NCBI GenBank assembly: GCA_017548245.1
Contig: JAFYMU010000135.1
Location: 1-10,027 of the forward strand
From: Kiritimatiellia bacterium
GTDB taxonomy: Bacteria > Verrucomicrobiota > Kiritimatiellia > RFP12 > DVOR01
Reading direction: 5' to 3'
DNA: 10,027 nt
Shown here: positions 4,744 to 9,157 of the stretch, one piece after another
How positions within the stretch are numbered: the stretch's first letter is position 1
Layout of the letters: every line of letters begins with the position of its first letter
Translations under genes and position numbers: made by a program
Notes under the pieces: generated by a model
The model's database searches: none
What the model was told of the DNA's origin: nothing
What the model saw: the letters and a program-made list of their open reading frames with translations, nothing else

Positions 4744-5355
4744 TTAGCCAATGATGACACGGCGACCTTCAATTCGCAAGCGACCTGCGGCCAAGTGGCG
4801 CAAGGCTTCAGGGAACGCAATATGTTCTTGCACTTGAATGCGTGCATGAAGCGTTTCAGGCGTATCGCCCTCCTCCACAGGAACGCATTTCTGCACAATA
4901 ATCGGGCCACTATCGGTTCCTGCATCCACAAAATGGACCGTGCAACCCGCCACCTTCGCGCCATAATTCAACGCCTGTTCCCAAGAGTGCAAACCAGGGA
5001 ATGCGGGCAACAACGCCGGATGAATGTTCAACACGCGATTCGGGAAGGCATCCAAGAGGCCTTGTTTGACGATACGCATAAAGCCCGCAAGCACCACCGT
5101 GTCAGCACCCGCTTCTTTCATAATGCGGATGTAGTTCTCCTGCGCTTCGCCATCCAACTTGGTCTTAAACGGGGCGCAAGAGACATACTGACCGGCCAAA
5201 CCGTGCTTTGCGGCACGTTCCAAAATCTTTGCATCGGGCACATCCGAGAGCACGCAAACGATTTCAGCGTCCAACGTTCCTGCTTCGATTGCGTCCACGA
5301 TGGACTGCATATTGCTGCCCGAACCCGAGCCGAGCACTGCCAATTTCAACTTCAC
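4744..5355 (-). CDS. purN: Phosphoribosylglycinamide formyltransferase
   Basis: PurN transfers the formyl group from 10-formyltetrahydrofolate to glycinamide ribonucleotide, the third step of de novo purine synthesis, in the cytosol. The 203 residues match the family. The N-terminal V-L-x-S-G-x-G-S-N (7-15) binds the substrate phosphate. The catalytic triad can be placed as N110 and H112 in N-I-H-P-A-L-L-P, and D148 in D-A-G-T-D-S-G-P, followed by I-I-V-Q. The start is GTG at 5355, 7 nt after a strong GGAGG (5363-5367). It overlaps the TGA of the FtsH-Cmk frame by 4 nt (GTGA), so the two are translationally coupled. Its pairing with CMP kinase puts two nucleotide-synthesis functions together. 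Confidence 0.97.
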   Translation of the reverse strand: MKLKLAVLGSGSGSNMQSIVDAIEAGTLDAEIVCVLSDVPDAKILERAAKHGLAGQYVSCAPFKTKLDGEAQENYIRIMKEAGADTVVLAGFMRIVKQGLLDAFPNRVLNIHPALLPAFPGLHSWEQALNYGAKVAGCTVHFVDAGTDSGPIIVQKCVPVEEGDTPETLHARIQVQEHIAFPEALRHLAAGRLRIEGRRVIIG

Positions 5356-6071
5356 TTGGTTTCCTCCGTCGTTTCAGGCTGAGCCGTCCACTCTGCGGGC
5401 AATGCATCAATCACCGACTGCACCACCTGTTCCAAGGTCAAATAGGTCGAGTCAATCGCCACCACGCCATCTGCCTTACGCAAGGGGGCGCAGGCACGCG
5501 AGGAGTCAATCTTATCACGTGCCAAGAGCGACGCCTTCACCGCTTCCACATCCTGATTAGCGATTCCCTTCTGCACTTCTTCCAACTGACGACGTGCTGC
5601 ACGCACTTCCGGATCAGCTTCCAAGTAGAAGCGTGCTGGCGAATCCGGGAAGACTGCCGTGGTGATATCGCGGCCTTCAATAATTAAGTTGCCGAAACGC
5701 GTCAAGCTGCGCAAGCCCGAGGTAATCTTGGCGCGCACTTCAGGCACCGTAGCCACTGGCGAAGCGTGGGCATTGATACGCGGTTCGCGCAATTCCTTGT
5801 CAGGACGGATACCGCCGACTTCGTAGACCACGCGGCCATCTTCGGCCTTGCAGTCAATCGCCAAATCCTTTGCCAACGCCGCCACCGCTGCCGGATCAGA
5901 GGTATCCACCCCCTGCTCCAAGCACTGCCACGTCACAATACGATAGAGCGCACCCGAGTCCACGTGGAGGTAACCCAAACGCTTCCCCACTTCCTTCGAA
6001 ACGGACGACTTACCGGCGCCACTCGGGCCATCAATGGCAATTACACGTGCTAAAGGATTTTCGTTTGTCAT
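5352..6071 (-). CDS. cmk: CMP kinase module, possibly also translated alone
   Basis: The C-terminal 239 residues of the fused frame form a full-length (d)CMP kinase; stand-alone Cmk proteins are about 220-230 residues. An ATG at 6071 starts [16 protein letters not shown], which is where a free Cmk would begin. It is preceded by GAGGAG (6081-6086) with a 9-nt spacer, a usable ribosome binding site inside the FtsH tail codons. Free Cmk may therefore be made from the same message besides the fusion. The kinase converts CMP and dCMP to diphosphates and salvages CMP released by RNA and lipid turnover. All recognised motifs are intact, so it should be active. Whether the separate product exists cannot be read from DNA alone. 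Confidence 0.55.
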   Translation of the reverse strand: MTNENPLARVIAIDGPSGAGKSSVSKEVGKRLGYLHVDSGALYRIVTWQCLEQGVDTSDPAAVAALAKDLAIDCKAEDGRVVYEVGGIRPDKELREPRINAHASPVATVPEVRAKITSGLRSLTRFGNLIIEGRDITTAVFPDSPARFYLEADPEVRAARRQLEEVQKGIANQDVEAVKASLLARDKIDSSRACAPLRKADGVVAIDSTYLTLEQVVQSVIDALPAEWTAQPETTEETK

Positions 6072-8072
6072 CGCTGTCTGCTCCTCATCTGCTTTCGGAC
6101 GCTTGATTTCAGGCTTGATACCTGTCTTAATCAGGCTTTCAATATCACGTCCGTCTGCCGTTTCAACTTCCAATAAATAGTCCACCAGGAGTTCGAGCTT
6201 ATCCTTATTGGCATGGATGAGCTCTTCACCACGCTGATAGGCTTCACGCACCAAACGCGAGACTTCCTCGTCAATCGTTCGGGCGGTCGCCTCAGAATGA
6301 TCCTGCTTACGGCCGATTTCACGACCCAAATAAATCTGCTCTTCGTTGTCACCAAAGGCTTGGAAACCAAAGACATCGCTCATGCCATAGGCGCATACCA
6401 TGCGACGGGCCAAATGGGTGGCCATCTTGATATCCTGCGAAGCCCCAGTCGAACGTTCGCCCGTGTAGCACATCTCGGCGATACGACCTGCCGCCATCAC
6501 GACAAGCATATCCTTCATTTCATTTTCGGTGTGATTGAGCACATCCCGTTCGGGCAAGGTCATCGTTGCACCCAACGCACGGCCGCGGGGGATAATCGTC
6601 ACCTTGTGAAGGGGTTCGGTATGGTCCAACAAGACCTGCGCCAACGCATGACCACCTTCGTGCCACGCCGTAATGCGACGATCCTTGTCCGCCATGGCGT
6701 ACGAACGCCGTTCGCGGCCCCACAGCACCTTATCACGCGCCTCTTCCATATCCACATGCGCCACCGTTTTACGGTTCGCACGCACGGCCAAAAGCGCCGC
6801 TTCATTTAAGAGGTTCGCCAAATCTGCGCCCGAGAAGCCAGGCGTACCACGCGCCACGCGTTCCAAATCCACATCGTCGCCCAACTTCACCTTGTTGGCA
6901 TGCACCTTCAAGATGGCCAAGCGGCCCTCGGTCGTCGGCAAATCAACGACAATCTGGCGGTCAAAACGGCCCGGACGCGTCAATGCCGGGTCCAACACGT
7001 CCACACGGTTGGTCGCCGCCATCACAATCACGCCGCTATTGCCTTCAAAGCCATCCATTTCGACCAACATGGCATTCAACGTCTGCTCACGTTCGTCATG
7101 GCCACCACCGATGCCGGTAAAACGCGTACGGCCAATCGCATCAATTTCGTCAATGAAGAGGATGCACGGCGCATTCTTCTTGGCCTGGGCGAACATATCA
7201 CGCACGCGGCTCGCCCCCACGCCAACAAACATTTCCACGAAGTCCGAACCGCTGATGGTAAAAAACGGTACATTCGCTTCACCCGCGATTGCCTTTGCCA
7301 ACAAGGTCTTACCCGTTCCAGGAGGCCCCATCAAGAGCACCCCCTTCGGCACCTTGCCACCAATCTCTTCAAAACGCTTCGGCGACTTCAAGAAGTCCAC
7401 GATTTCCTGAACCTCTTCCTTCGCCTCATCCACGCCCGCGACATCCGTAAAGCGAATCTTCGCATCTTCCTTGTTCATCATGCGAGCACGCGACTTACCA
7501 AAGGCAAACGGACCTTCGCCCTCACCCTTCATGCGACGCATAAAGAAGACGTAAAAGAGCGCAAAGAAGATCAAAATCGGCAACACGGAGATAAACACCG
7601 TGCCGAACCAATTCGACTTGTTCTGTTGGATCGTGCGAACGCCATAAGCGGCCAACCGATTTTCCACGTTGGTCACATCCAAAACGTTCAACTTAAAGGG
7701 TTTGCCCTTTGCTTGAGAGACTGTGCCATCGGCCGCAGGGGTCGGTTGCCAAACGCCCTGGAGCGAGGTTTCATCCTGCCCCTCGCGCACCAACATGACC
7801 TCAGCCAACGCCGCATTACCCTTGACTTCGCCCGCGTCATTCTTCACCACACCCTGTTCGACACGCTGCCAGAATTCCAACTGTGACAACGCCGCCTCTT
7901 CGTGGGTCAGCGAAATCCCCTCCGCGCCGCTCTTGAAGAGCGCCACCAACGAGAAAATGAAGACAACGAGCAAGACCCACACCATCAGCGGCGCACGCCA
8001 CTGCGGTTTCTTATTGGGGTTCTTCGGATCTTGCGACGGTTTCTCTGCAGACGGTTGTTCGTTTTTCGACAT
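5352..8072 (-). CDS. ftsH-cmk: FtsH zinc metalloprotease fused to CMP kinase
   Basis: One uninterrupted 906-residue frame. Residues 1-27 are a polar lysine-rich cytosolic segment; transmembrane helices lie at about 28-46 and 155-178 with a periplasmic domain between. The AAA+ module has Walker A G-P-P-G-T-G-K-T (249-256), pore loop F-V-G, Walker B I-L-F-I-D-E-I-D (304-311) and the second region of homology A-A-T-N-R to R-F-D-R (352-372). The zinc protease has H-E-G-G-H (471-475) and the third ligand D547 in G-A-S-Q-D. After L-I-K-T-G (about 650) a short charged linker leads to a complete cytidylate kinase with G-P-S-G-A-G-K-S (682-689), D-S-G-A-L-Y-R (705-711), G-R-D-I (800-803) and the lid R-D-K-I-D-S-S-R. 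FtsH degrades misfolded membrane proteins; Cmk phosphorylates CMP and dCMP. The ATG at 8072 follows AAAGGAG (8078-8084), 5 nt away, and lies 1 nt after the glycosyltransferase stop; a longer frame back to 8153 lacks such a site. FtsH and Cmk are normally separate proteins. Confidence 0.9.
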
Positions 8073-8073
8073 C

Positions 8074-9009
8074 TCAACTCCTTTGAACTTCGCGTCCCTT
8101 TTCTTGCGAGACGAGAATTTCAAACATTTGATCATTTTGTTTTTTGCAGGCACCTAAAATCAATCCCACACCGTAGGATAGCAACCCTGCCATTGCTAAA
8201 AAGCCCGAGAAGTTCAACGTCGGCTGACGCGGCACTTCACCAATCTTAAAGTACTCAATCAAAACGGGGATAAAGAGTGCTGCGGCACAGAGCAACAATA
8301 CCGTTCCCACCGCGCCAAAGAAGAGTTCCGGACGGTAAAAACGGAAGAGGTTGAAGATGGTCTTCAACACGCGAATCCCGTCACGCACCGTGTTCAACTT
8401 CGAAACACTGCCCTCCGGACGATCACGATACTGCACCGGCACCTCAACCAAACTCATACGCTTATCAATCGTATGCAAGGTCATTTCGGTTTCAATCTCA
8501 AAACCTTCTGCCAACACCGGGCAGCTCTTCACAAAGAGACGGCTAAAGGCGCGATAACCCGTCATCACGTCATTCACGCGCTGGCCCCAGAGCAAACGGA
8601 TCAGCGTGCAGACGAGCGTGTTACCAAAATTGTGCCCCGGGCGCTTATTTTCCTGCATGTAGGTCGAAGACAGACGGTCACCATTGACCATATCCGCCTC
8701 ACCCGCCAACACCGGTTGAATCAACTTATGCACCTCATCAGCAGGATACGTATCATCCGAGTCCACCATCACGTAAACATCGGCATCCACCTCTTGGAAC
8801 ATGCGACGCACCACATGGCCCTTACCCTGCTGCGGCACACGACGCACCTGCGCACCAGCCGATGCCGCCAAATCGGCAGAACCATCCGAACTGTTATTGT
8901 CATACACCCAAATCTCAGCCTCCGGCAATTCCTTGCGGAAATCCCGAACAACCTTTTCAATCGTAAGTGCTTCATTGTAACAAGGCAATAAGATGGCAAC
9001 TTTCGGCAT
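8074..9009 (-). CDS. Family 2 glycosyltransferase, polyprenyl-phosphate type
   Basis: A 311-residue membrane-anchored GT2 enzyme of the DPM1/GtrB-like group, which moves a sugar from a nucleotide donor to a polyprenyl phosphate for use in envelope glycans or protein glycosylation. The GT-A domain shows L-P-C-Y-N-E (8-13), D-N-N-S-S-D-G-S (37-44), the metal-binding D-S-D-D-T-Y (83-88), D-V-M-T-G-Y-R-A-F-S-R (147-157) and E-G-F-E-I-E-T-E (168-175), then R-P-E-G-S-V-S-K. Two transmembrane helices follow at about 231-253 and 267-287, like GtrB-type proteins. The sugar is unknown. I chose the ATG at 9009 because AAGGAG (9017-9022) is 7 nt upstream and the likely -10 (9038-9043) lies between this start and the longest open frame (9117). 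It is the first gene of the operon and its TGA is 1 nt from the ftsH start. Confidence 0.92.
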   Translation of the reverse strand: MPKVAILLPCYNEALTIEKVVRDFRKELPEAEIWVYDNNSSDGSADLAASAGAQVRRVPQQGKGHVVRRMFQEVDADVYVMVDSDDTYPADEVHKLIQPVLAGEADMVNGDRLSSTYMQENKRPGHNFGNTLVCTLIRLLWGQRVNDVMTGYRAFSRLFVKSCPVLAEGFEIETEMTLHTIDKRMSLVEVPVQYRDRPEGSVSKLNTVRDGIRVLKTIFNLFRFYRPELFFGAVGTVLLLCAAALFIPVLIEYFKIGEVPRQPTLNFSGFLAMAGLLSYGVGLILGACKKQNDQMFEILVSQEKGREVQRS

Positions 9010-9037
9010 AGTCATACTCCTTAACGAATTAGTCGGC

Positions 9038-9046
9038 ATTATACCA
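9038..9046 (-). promoter_or_regulatory. Operon promoter (extended -10)
   Basis: On the minus strand TGGTATAAT combines a TGn extension with a perfect TATAAT hexamer (9038-9043). At 17-nt spacing the -35 position is GCATTT, a poor match, which is common for extended -10 promoters. The predicted start near 9031 gives a leader of about 20 nt with AAGGAG. A second AT-rich element, TATAAA at 9074-9079, has no -35 at a proper distance. This promoter probably drives all seven genes from the glycosyltransferase to nadK. Confidence 0.6.
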
Positions 9047-9157
9047 TAAACCACGCCCCAAAATGCACCCTTATTTATACTAAATAAAATACGCGCAACC
9101 CCACGCCATCGATACACCCCACCACAAAATGCCCAAAATCCCCATTTTTCCCTTTTT

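Follow-up and report, generated by a model that had tools for sequence, protein, structure and literature searches.

FtsH and the cytidine monophosphate (CMP) kinase Cmk are both old and widespread housekeeping proteins. FtsH (NCBIfam model TIGR01241) has two transmembrane helices, AAA+ and M41 domains and a zinc motif, and Cmk (TIGR00017) is usually a free protein of ~220-230 residues, with solved chains of 208-252 residues. Cmk is also known in frame with unrelated housekeeping enzymes, as in the NCBIfam families PanC-Cmk (NF010004), AroA-Cmk (NF008816) and Cmk-Der (NF007071). Here we analyze a gene that encodes FtsH and Cmk in one open reading frame. It lies in a stretch of 10,027 nucleotides, called the window below, at positions 1 to 10,027 of contig JAFYMU010000135.1 (assembly GCA_017548245.1, Kiritimatiellia bacterium). 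Our analysis of the sequences suggests that its product is very probably a genuine bifunctional FtsH-Cmk with a single origin, in the ancestor of a genus of gut Kiritimatiellae.

The N-terminal part of the encoded protein has the same helices, domains and zinc motif as FtsH, but in place of the C-terminal FtsH tail the chain continues with a linker and an entire CMP kinase. The latter is a full-length Cmk domain matching 11 distinct solved Cmk sequences; unlike the usual free Cmk, it is carried on a membrane protease. The gene resembles the three described fusions in joining Cmk with an unrelated housekeeping enzyme, but their partners are not membrane proteases, and it scores far under their whole-protein cut-offs (181.8 against 524 bits for PanC-Cmk, 157.7 against 943 for AroA-Cmk and 143 against 953 for Cmk-Der). 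The fusion is unusual among Cmk fusions in having a membrane protease as its partner and in being the sole Cmk found.

The fusion is real, genus-wide and probably of single origin, and it appears to be undescribed. The sequence-only reading, a note made earlier on this DNA, had known of no described FtsH-Cmk protein, and we likewise found no description of one in the open-access full-text literature searched, including that on FtsH under the name stem Kiritimatiell and that on Cmk fusions. The parts seen of PMC2248599 and PMC6609329 mention cytidylate kinase with no FtsH fusion, and no FtsH-Cmk fusion is described in the passages of PMC9456370 that were available. The excerpts of PMC9356133 hold nothing relevant, and those of PMC8035907 have no passage on Spyradenecus.

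Reading frame and domains of the fused gene

The ftsH-cmk gene occupies positions 5352-8072 on the minus strand of the window, with 906 codons plus the stop at 5354-5352, as supported by the frame and by Pfam and NCBIfam matches. Translation from the GTG at 8153 would give 933 residues and from the ATG at 8072 gives 906; the latter is the likely start, since AAAGGAG and five further bases (TTGAG) stand directly before it. The 906-residue chain matches TIGR01241 with 790.7 bits (cut-off 600) at residues 47-643, covering profile positions 11-597 of 598, and TIGR00017 with 200.4 bits (cut-off 135.55) at residues 677-889. The Pfam domains on the same chain are AAA (E=4.1e-48), AAA_lid_3 (E=3.5e-15), Peptidase_M41 (E=1.5e-59) and Cytidylate_kin (PF02224, E=3.4e-62, profile positions 1-208 of 211). 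The best match among solved structures for the FtsH part is 7vhp (644 residues), presumably E. coli FtsH, which aligns with residues 96-594.

Hydrophobic windows of 19 residues begin at residues 24-36 and 153-163. Together with a weak structure model they place the first transmembrane helix at residues 26-47 (7932-7997, minus strand, as for all features of the gene) and the second at residues 155-182 (7527-7610). The AAA+ ATPase domain follows at 6942-7340, with the Walker A motif at residues 249-256, and the Peptidase M41 domain at 6132-6695, with the zinc motif HEGGH at residues 471-475 and the third ligand at D547. A linker of 31 codons (6045-6137) leads from the FtsH core to the first Cmk strand, and the CMP kinase domain lies at 5403-6041, where PF02224, TIGR00017 and solved Cmk structures match. 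The structure model has a mean predicted local distance difference test score (pLDDT) of 67.1 and a predicted template modelling score (pTM) of 0.44, and is uninformative on the domain arrangement; within these limits it supports a pair of N-terminal helices and a kinase domain set apart from the rest, and it resolves the linker poorly, with low confidence at residues 659-670.

No stop codon is present in the junction DNA between the FtsH and Cmk parts of the window. Read-through of a recoded stop is ruled out, as the junction is stop-free here and in the 15 other genomes with the fusion described below. The sequence-only reading had seen a complete FtsH with two transmembrane helices, AAA+ motifs, HEGGH and a third zinc ligand, running without a stop through a linker of roughly 30 residues into a complete Cmk with its nucleotide-binding and lid motifs. 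The profiles, the hydropathy, the junction DNA and the alignment of 38 fusions (the window's and 37 of the 47 database proteins introduced below) bear this out for both halves and for the linker.

In that alignment Walker A and the FtsH zinc site (H471, E472, H475 and D547) are invariant in 38/38 fusions. The residues G682-S690, D705-R711, E799-D802, R824/R827/R828 and R852/D853/D856/S857/R859 of the Cmk half are invariant as well, and we take them to be the P-loop, the CMP-binding DSGALYR, the EGRD motif, the lid arginines and RDxxDSxR; the catalytic roles of the FtsH and Cmk residues are assumed here from the known families. Among the 47 database fusions the zinc motif is HEGGH in 42 and HESGH in four and is absent from one truncated chimera, and three proteins are too short to include Walker A. 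Judged by these sequences, neither half looks decayed.

Distribution within the genus

We examined 17 genomes from the family to which the window belongs, including the window's own; all 17 are members of the same genus. Both domains are in one open frame in 16 of them, and in 9/9 of those with a completeness of 90% or more and a contamination of 5% or less. The fused gene of genome G004 is split across two contigs, and those of G010 and G009 are truncated by the contig end. No split ftsH/cmk arrangement was seen in the 16 genomes. PF02224 occurs once per genome in all of them (in G004 as the two pieces of the split gene), and so does a full Peptidase_M41 (PF01434). The fused gene would therefore be the only detectable source of both Cmk and FtsH in these 16 genomes, with the reservation that the assemblies are incomplete, so any single genome could hold a second copy. 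The sole-cmk status had been missed by the sequence-only reading. In genome G007, Peptidase_M41 also gives a partial match (C55:4689-5690, E=6.1e-8) in a separate frame of 774 residues, perhaps a divergent FtsH-like paralogue.

The window's genome is a 243-contig assembly of 75% completeness, the kind of record in which two genes could be joined by an assembly or sequencing error. The 15 other genomes come from different records and hosts, carry the fusion and share 76-88% protein identity with the window's over the matched part. Among protein clusters, 46 carry it, not counting the chimera P0022. With 16/17 genus genomes carrying it, the fusion is not an assembly error; we rejected the artefact explanation on this ground and consider its chance negligible.

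Of 15 named database loci, 14 belong to the genus, two of them being pieces from one genome; they come from ruminants and other sources and include one under the name Candidatus Spyradenecus faecavium. The remaining locus is a distant Betaproteobacteria Cmk.

Separate genes and other Cmk fusions outside the genus

Beyond the genus, ftsH and cmk are as a rule separate genes, as the sequence-only reading had stated for the two families. In genomes of the same order, ftsH and cmk are both present in at least 36 of 42, always on different contigs. We also searched 345 genomes of the class, 335 of which matched. No listed match outside the genus spans Cmk into the FtsH core; none of the listed non-genus matches starts before query residue 84, and the FtsH core takes up query residues 1-71. 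The sequence-only reading had named beforehand a test of its claim, namely whether close relatives all keep the two genes apart with a conserved stop at this point, and inside the genus they do not. At least eight non-genus relatives have cmk in open frames of 450 residues or more, none joined to FtsH. Four of these eight long frames were inspected by eye as candidates for other Cmk fusions and rejected as apparently chance open frames, with an arginine-rich stretch followed by a fresh start at the Cmk methionine.

The Cmk region was then compared with 5.8 billion proteins, the best 7998 candidates by shared words being scored; a very distant independent FtsH-Cmk could escape such a search. 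At least 101 proteins passed, 47 of them close relatives with FtsH and 54 others. The 47 are 72-100% identical over the matched part; each combines the end motif of FtsH with the P-loop of Cmk on a single chain, and Pfam finds Peptidase_M41 in 46 of them. The exception, P0022, has 571 residues and begins with PF00724, presumably a domain of the old-yellow-enzyme type, followed by an FtsH tail (recognized by eye) and Cmk; it is probably from a chimeric contig.

None of the 54 other listed proteins has an M41 domain. Their partners, which we named from the Pfam accessions, are presumably AroA (15), RpsA (12), PanC (11), Der (4), a flavoprotein (3), PlsC (2) and TyrA (2), plus five singles; a three-domain AroA/RpsA protein is counted under AroA, and the singles include one protein without a named partner. 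P0094, a partial Cmk with a Big-type domain, is 72% identical over 28% of the query and is placed among the 54. P0066 and P0067, from other bacteria, join Cmk to a PF01553 domain, which we take to be a PlsC-type acyltransferase, and may be another link between Cmk and membrane lipid synthesis.

Such a variety of partners bears on why the fusion exists. The ftsH stop could have been lost by chance within an operon, with both halves tolerating the junction and no coupling between proteolysis and CMP. Since Cmk is often fused to unrelated partners, as in the 54 proteins and the three NCBIfam models, drift of this kind is a full rival, and we give it slightly better than even odds. It is compatible with the fusion being a real protein and competes only with the local recycling of CMP considered below. 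The linker, loose in both sequence and length, also fits it. Against it, 0/16 genomes have split the gene again though a cmk start is available in some; the start is instead missing in 3/16.

The phylogeny that the sequence-only reading had proposed along with the database search was built from the FtsH core and Cmk with the linker excluded and outgroups represented by FtsH alone, under LG+G4 without a mixture model. All fusions form one clade with support 100/100. Across the genus, the sequences also show a continuous frame that is preserved over the junction and unimpaired catalytic residues in both halves, with a single Cmk found in each genome.

The linker and a possible internal start

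Linker lengths across the genus are 22, 26, 31 or 32 codons. That these lengths are whole codons is a consequence of reading in a single frame, and we give it no weight as evidence. In five close pairs, 37.3 of 94.8 synonymous and 35.7 of 289.2 nonsynonymous sites have changed in the linker, a ratio of nonsynonymous to synonymous change (Ka/Ks) of ~0.24 (Fisher p ~1e-7 on rounded counts). The linker therefore evolves as coding sequence. The ratio supports coding on both sides of an internal ATG, but by itself it does not separate one protein from two.

This ATG (M668, 6069-6071, minus strand) is in frame and is preceded at nine bases by a Shine-Dalgarno-like AGGAG (6081-6085, minus strand), which was identified by scoring the sequence. 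The two elements are probably the old cmk start, and the ATG is a possible internal start. A site and start at 6085-6069 could yield free Cmk without cleavage, a feature that the sequence-only reading had missed. The same AGGAG/ATG arrangement is found in G004, G016 and G011, and Shine-Dalgarno-like sites of five or six bases in G014 and G002. Overall, sites of at least five bases precede the linker ATG in 6/13 genomes that have it, against 9/263 for other in-frame ATGs of the same open reading frames (Fisher p ~1e-5, with relatedness ignored).

These sites raise the possibility of two products, the long protein and a free Cmk that does much of the work, arising either from initiation at the ATG (6071-6069) or from self-cleavage by FtsH within the linker; the sequence-only reading had named C-terminal self-trimming of FtsH as a way in which the kinase could be released. 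The low confidence of the linker in the structure model also fits a dual output. On the other side, the linker ATG is missing in 3/16 genomes (G012, G008 and G015), with at least three changes on the tree, and the linker methionine is absent in 7/47 database fusions, so an internal start is not needed genus-wide. Genomes without the ATG can produce the kinase only by translating the whole fusion, unless initiation occurs at a weak non-ATG start. In the linker stretch of G008, scanned up to a point before the first Cmk strand, there is no ATG, GTG or TTG. We regard the chances of two such products as about balanced.

Several observations weigh against reading the gene as a bifunctional protein on which these genomes depend, or against parts of the history that goes with it. 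The profile search found neither ftsH nor cmk in G013, which we attribute to its completeness of 77%. The Shine-Dalgarno-like bases are partly expected from the glutamate codons of the linker, and the six cases among 13 come from related species and do not count as independent. On the tree, G010 was assigned by hand to the class having such sites, but it scored only four bases, and a further 6 of the 13 ATG linkers scored four or fewer. Weak starts are seen where the ATG is lost, namely GTG with GGAG at seven bases in G015 and GTG with GGTG at 11 in G012. The LG+G4 tree leaves 8/19 inner branches open, and its long branches meet at the outgroup, as flagged by a treekit warning. An internal start in the window's species could make most of the Cmk, with the fusion as a by-product.

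Proposed origin and function

For the bifunctional FtsH-Cmk, which we prefer, we infer the following history. A cmk gene that had a ribosome-binding site of its own would have come to adjoin ftsH directly downstream. Loss of the ftsH stop would then have turned the FtsH tail and the old cmk leader into the linker, with the cmk ribosome-binding site kept for a time and later lost repeatedly. The product would be an inner-membrane FtsH hexamer with six CMP kinase domains on flexible cytosolic tethers. With both halves active, these kinases may supply the whole cell with cytidine diphosphate (CDP) made from CMP. The window's species retains the old site and ATG, and initiation there probably makes some free Cmk; in species where the site has decayed, the fusion would be the only evident Cmk source. 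The only detectable Cmk being tied to FtsH suggests that both work in the fused form.

The fusion raises the question of whether there is a connection between the recycling of nucleotides and proteolysis in the envelope. Enzymes of the Kdo-transferase and CDP-alcohol phosphotransferase families release CMP, and some enzymes of phospholipid and Kdo-lipid A synthesis are controlled by FtsH in E. coli. The genus encodes a Kdo-transferase-type Glycos_transf_N in 17/17 genomes, LpxC in 17/17 and a CDP-alcohol phosphotransferase in 15/17. G016 has two LpxC matches of equal score (C2:132557-133417 and C33:16463-17323), possibly a duplicated or doubly assembled gene.

One speculation is that the fusion was kept because it brings CMP recycling to the membrane enzymes that release CMP in making phospholipids and Kdo-lipid A; we think this unlikely, and drift the likelier of the two. 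Equally tentative is the idea that having the cell's only CMP kinase on the protease chain couples the supply of cytidine triphosphate (CTP), by amount and perhaps also by activity, to the protease that balances lipopolysaccharide and phospholipids. The sequence-only reading had itself called a link between CTP supply and membrane proteolysis speculative. According to the part of PMC7773988 that was seen, KdtA/WaaA is regulated by FtsH. The passages seen of PMC9456370 report that joint loss of cmk and lapD is lethal in E. coli and that LapD co-purifies with FtsH-LapA/B, and its authors point to the supply of CTP and dCTP for phospholipid synthesis. As far as these passages go, the lethality is an independent genetic hint of a connection between FtsH and Cmk; they also report a weak peptidyl-prolyl isomerase activity of Cmk, and this is another possible reason for it.

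Gene neighbourhood and other genes of the window

Directly upstream of the fused gene lies a family 2 glycosyltransferase-like (GT2) gene (8074-9117, minus strand), whose NCBIfam matches are below the cut-offs. Directly downstream is purN (4744-5355, minus strand, TIGR00639). At 5352-5355 the purN start codon, GTG, and the TGA that ends the fused gene overlap, and a GGAGG lies within the last codons of the fusion, which suggests translational coupling. Among genus genomes with enough flank, the window included, GT2 is upstream in 15/15 (the contig of G009 ends inside ftsH) and purN downstream in 15/15 (that of G010 ends inside cmk). This conserved order of GT2, ftsH-cmk and purN had been missed by the sequence-only reading.

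In eight order relatives with both loci read, neither GT2 nor purN turned up in the sequence examined at the ftsH and cmk loci. There, ftsH is near folP, dacA, ybbR and ftsK in several genomes and cmk is in unrelated places; the neighbours were assigned by Pfam in G053 only and by clustering in the rest.

Elsewhere in the window, a YhcH/YjgK/YiaL family protein (TIGR00022) at 1711-2175 adjoins NAD kinase, and at the matching place in L033 and L034 an open reading frame is called on the opposite strand. A small open reading frame at 2203-2433, between a TPR gene and the YhcH gene, was found in two relatives and presumably resembles the exodeoxyribonuclease VII small subunit.

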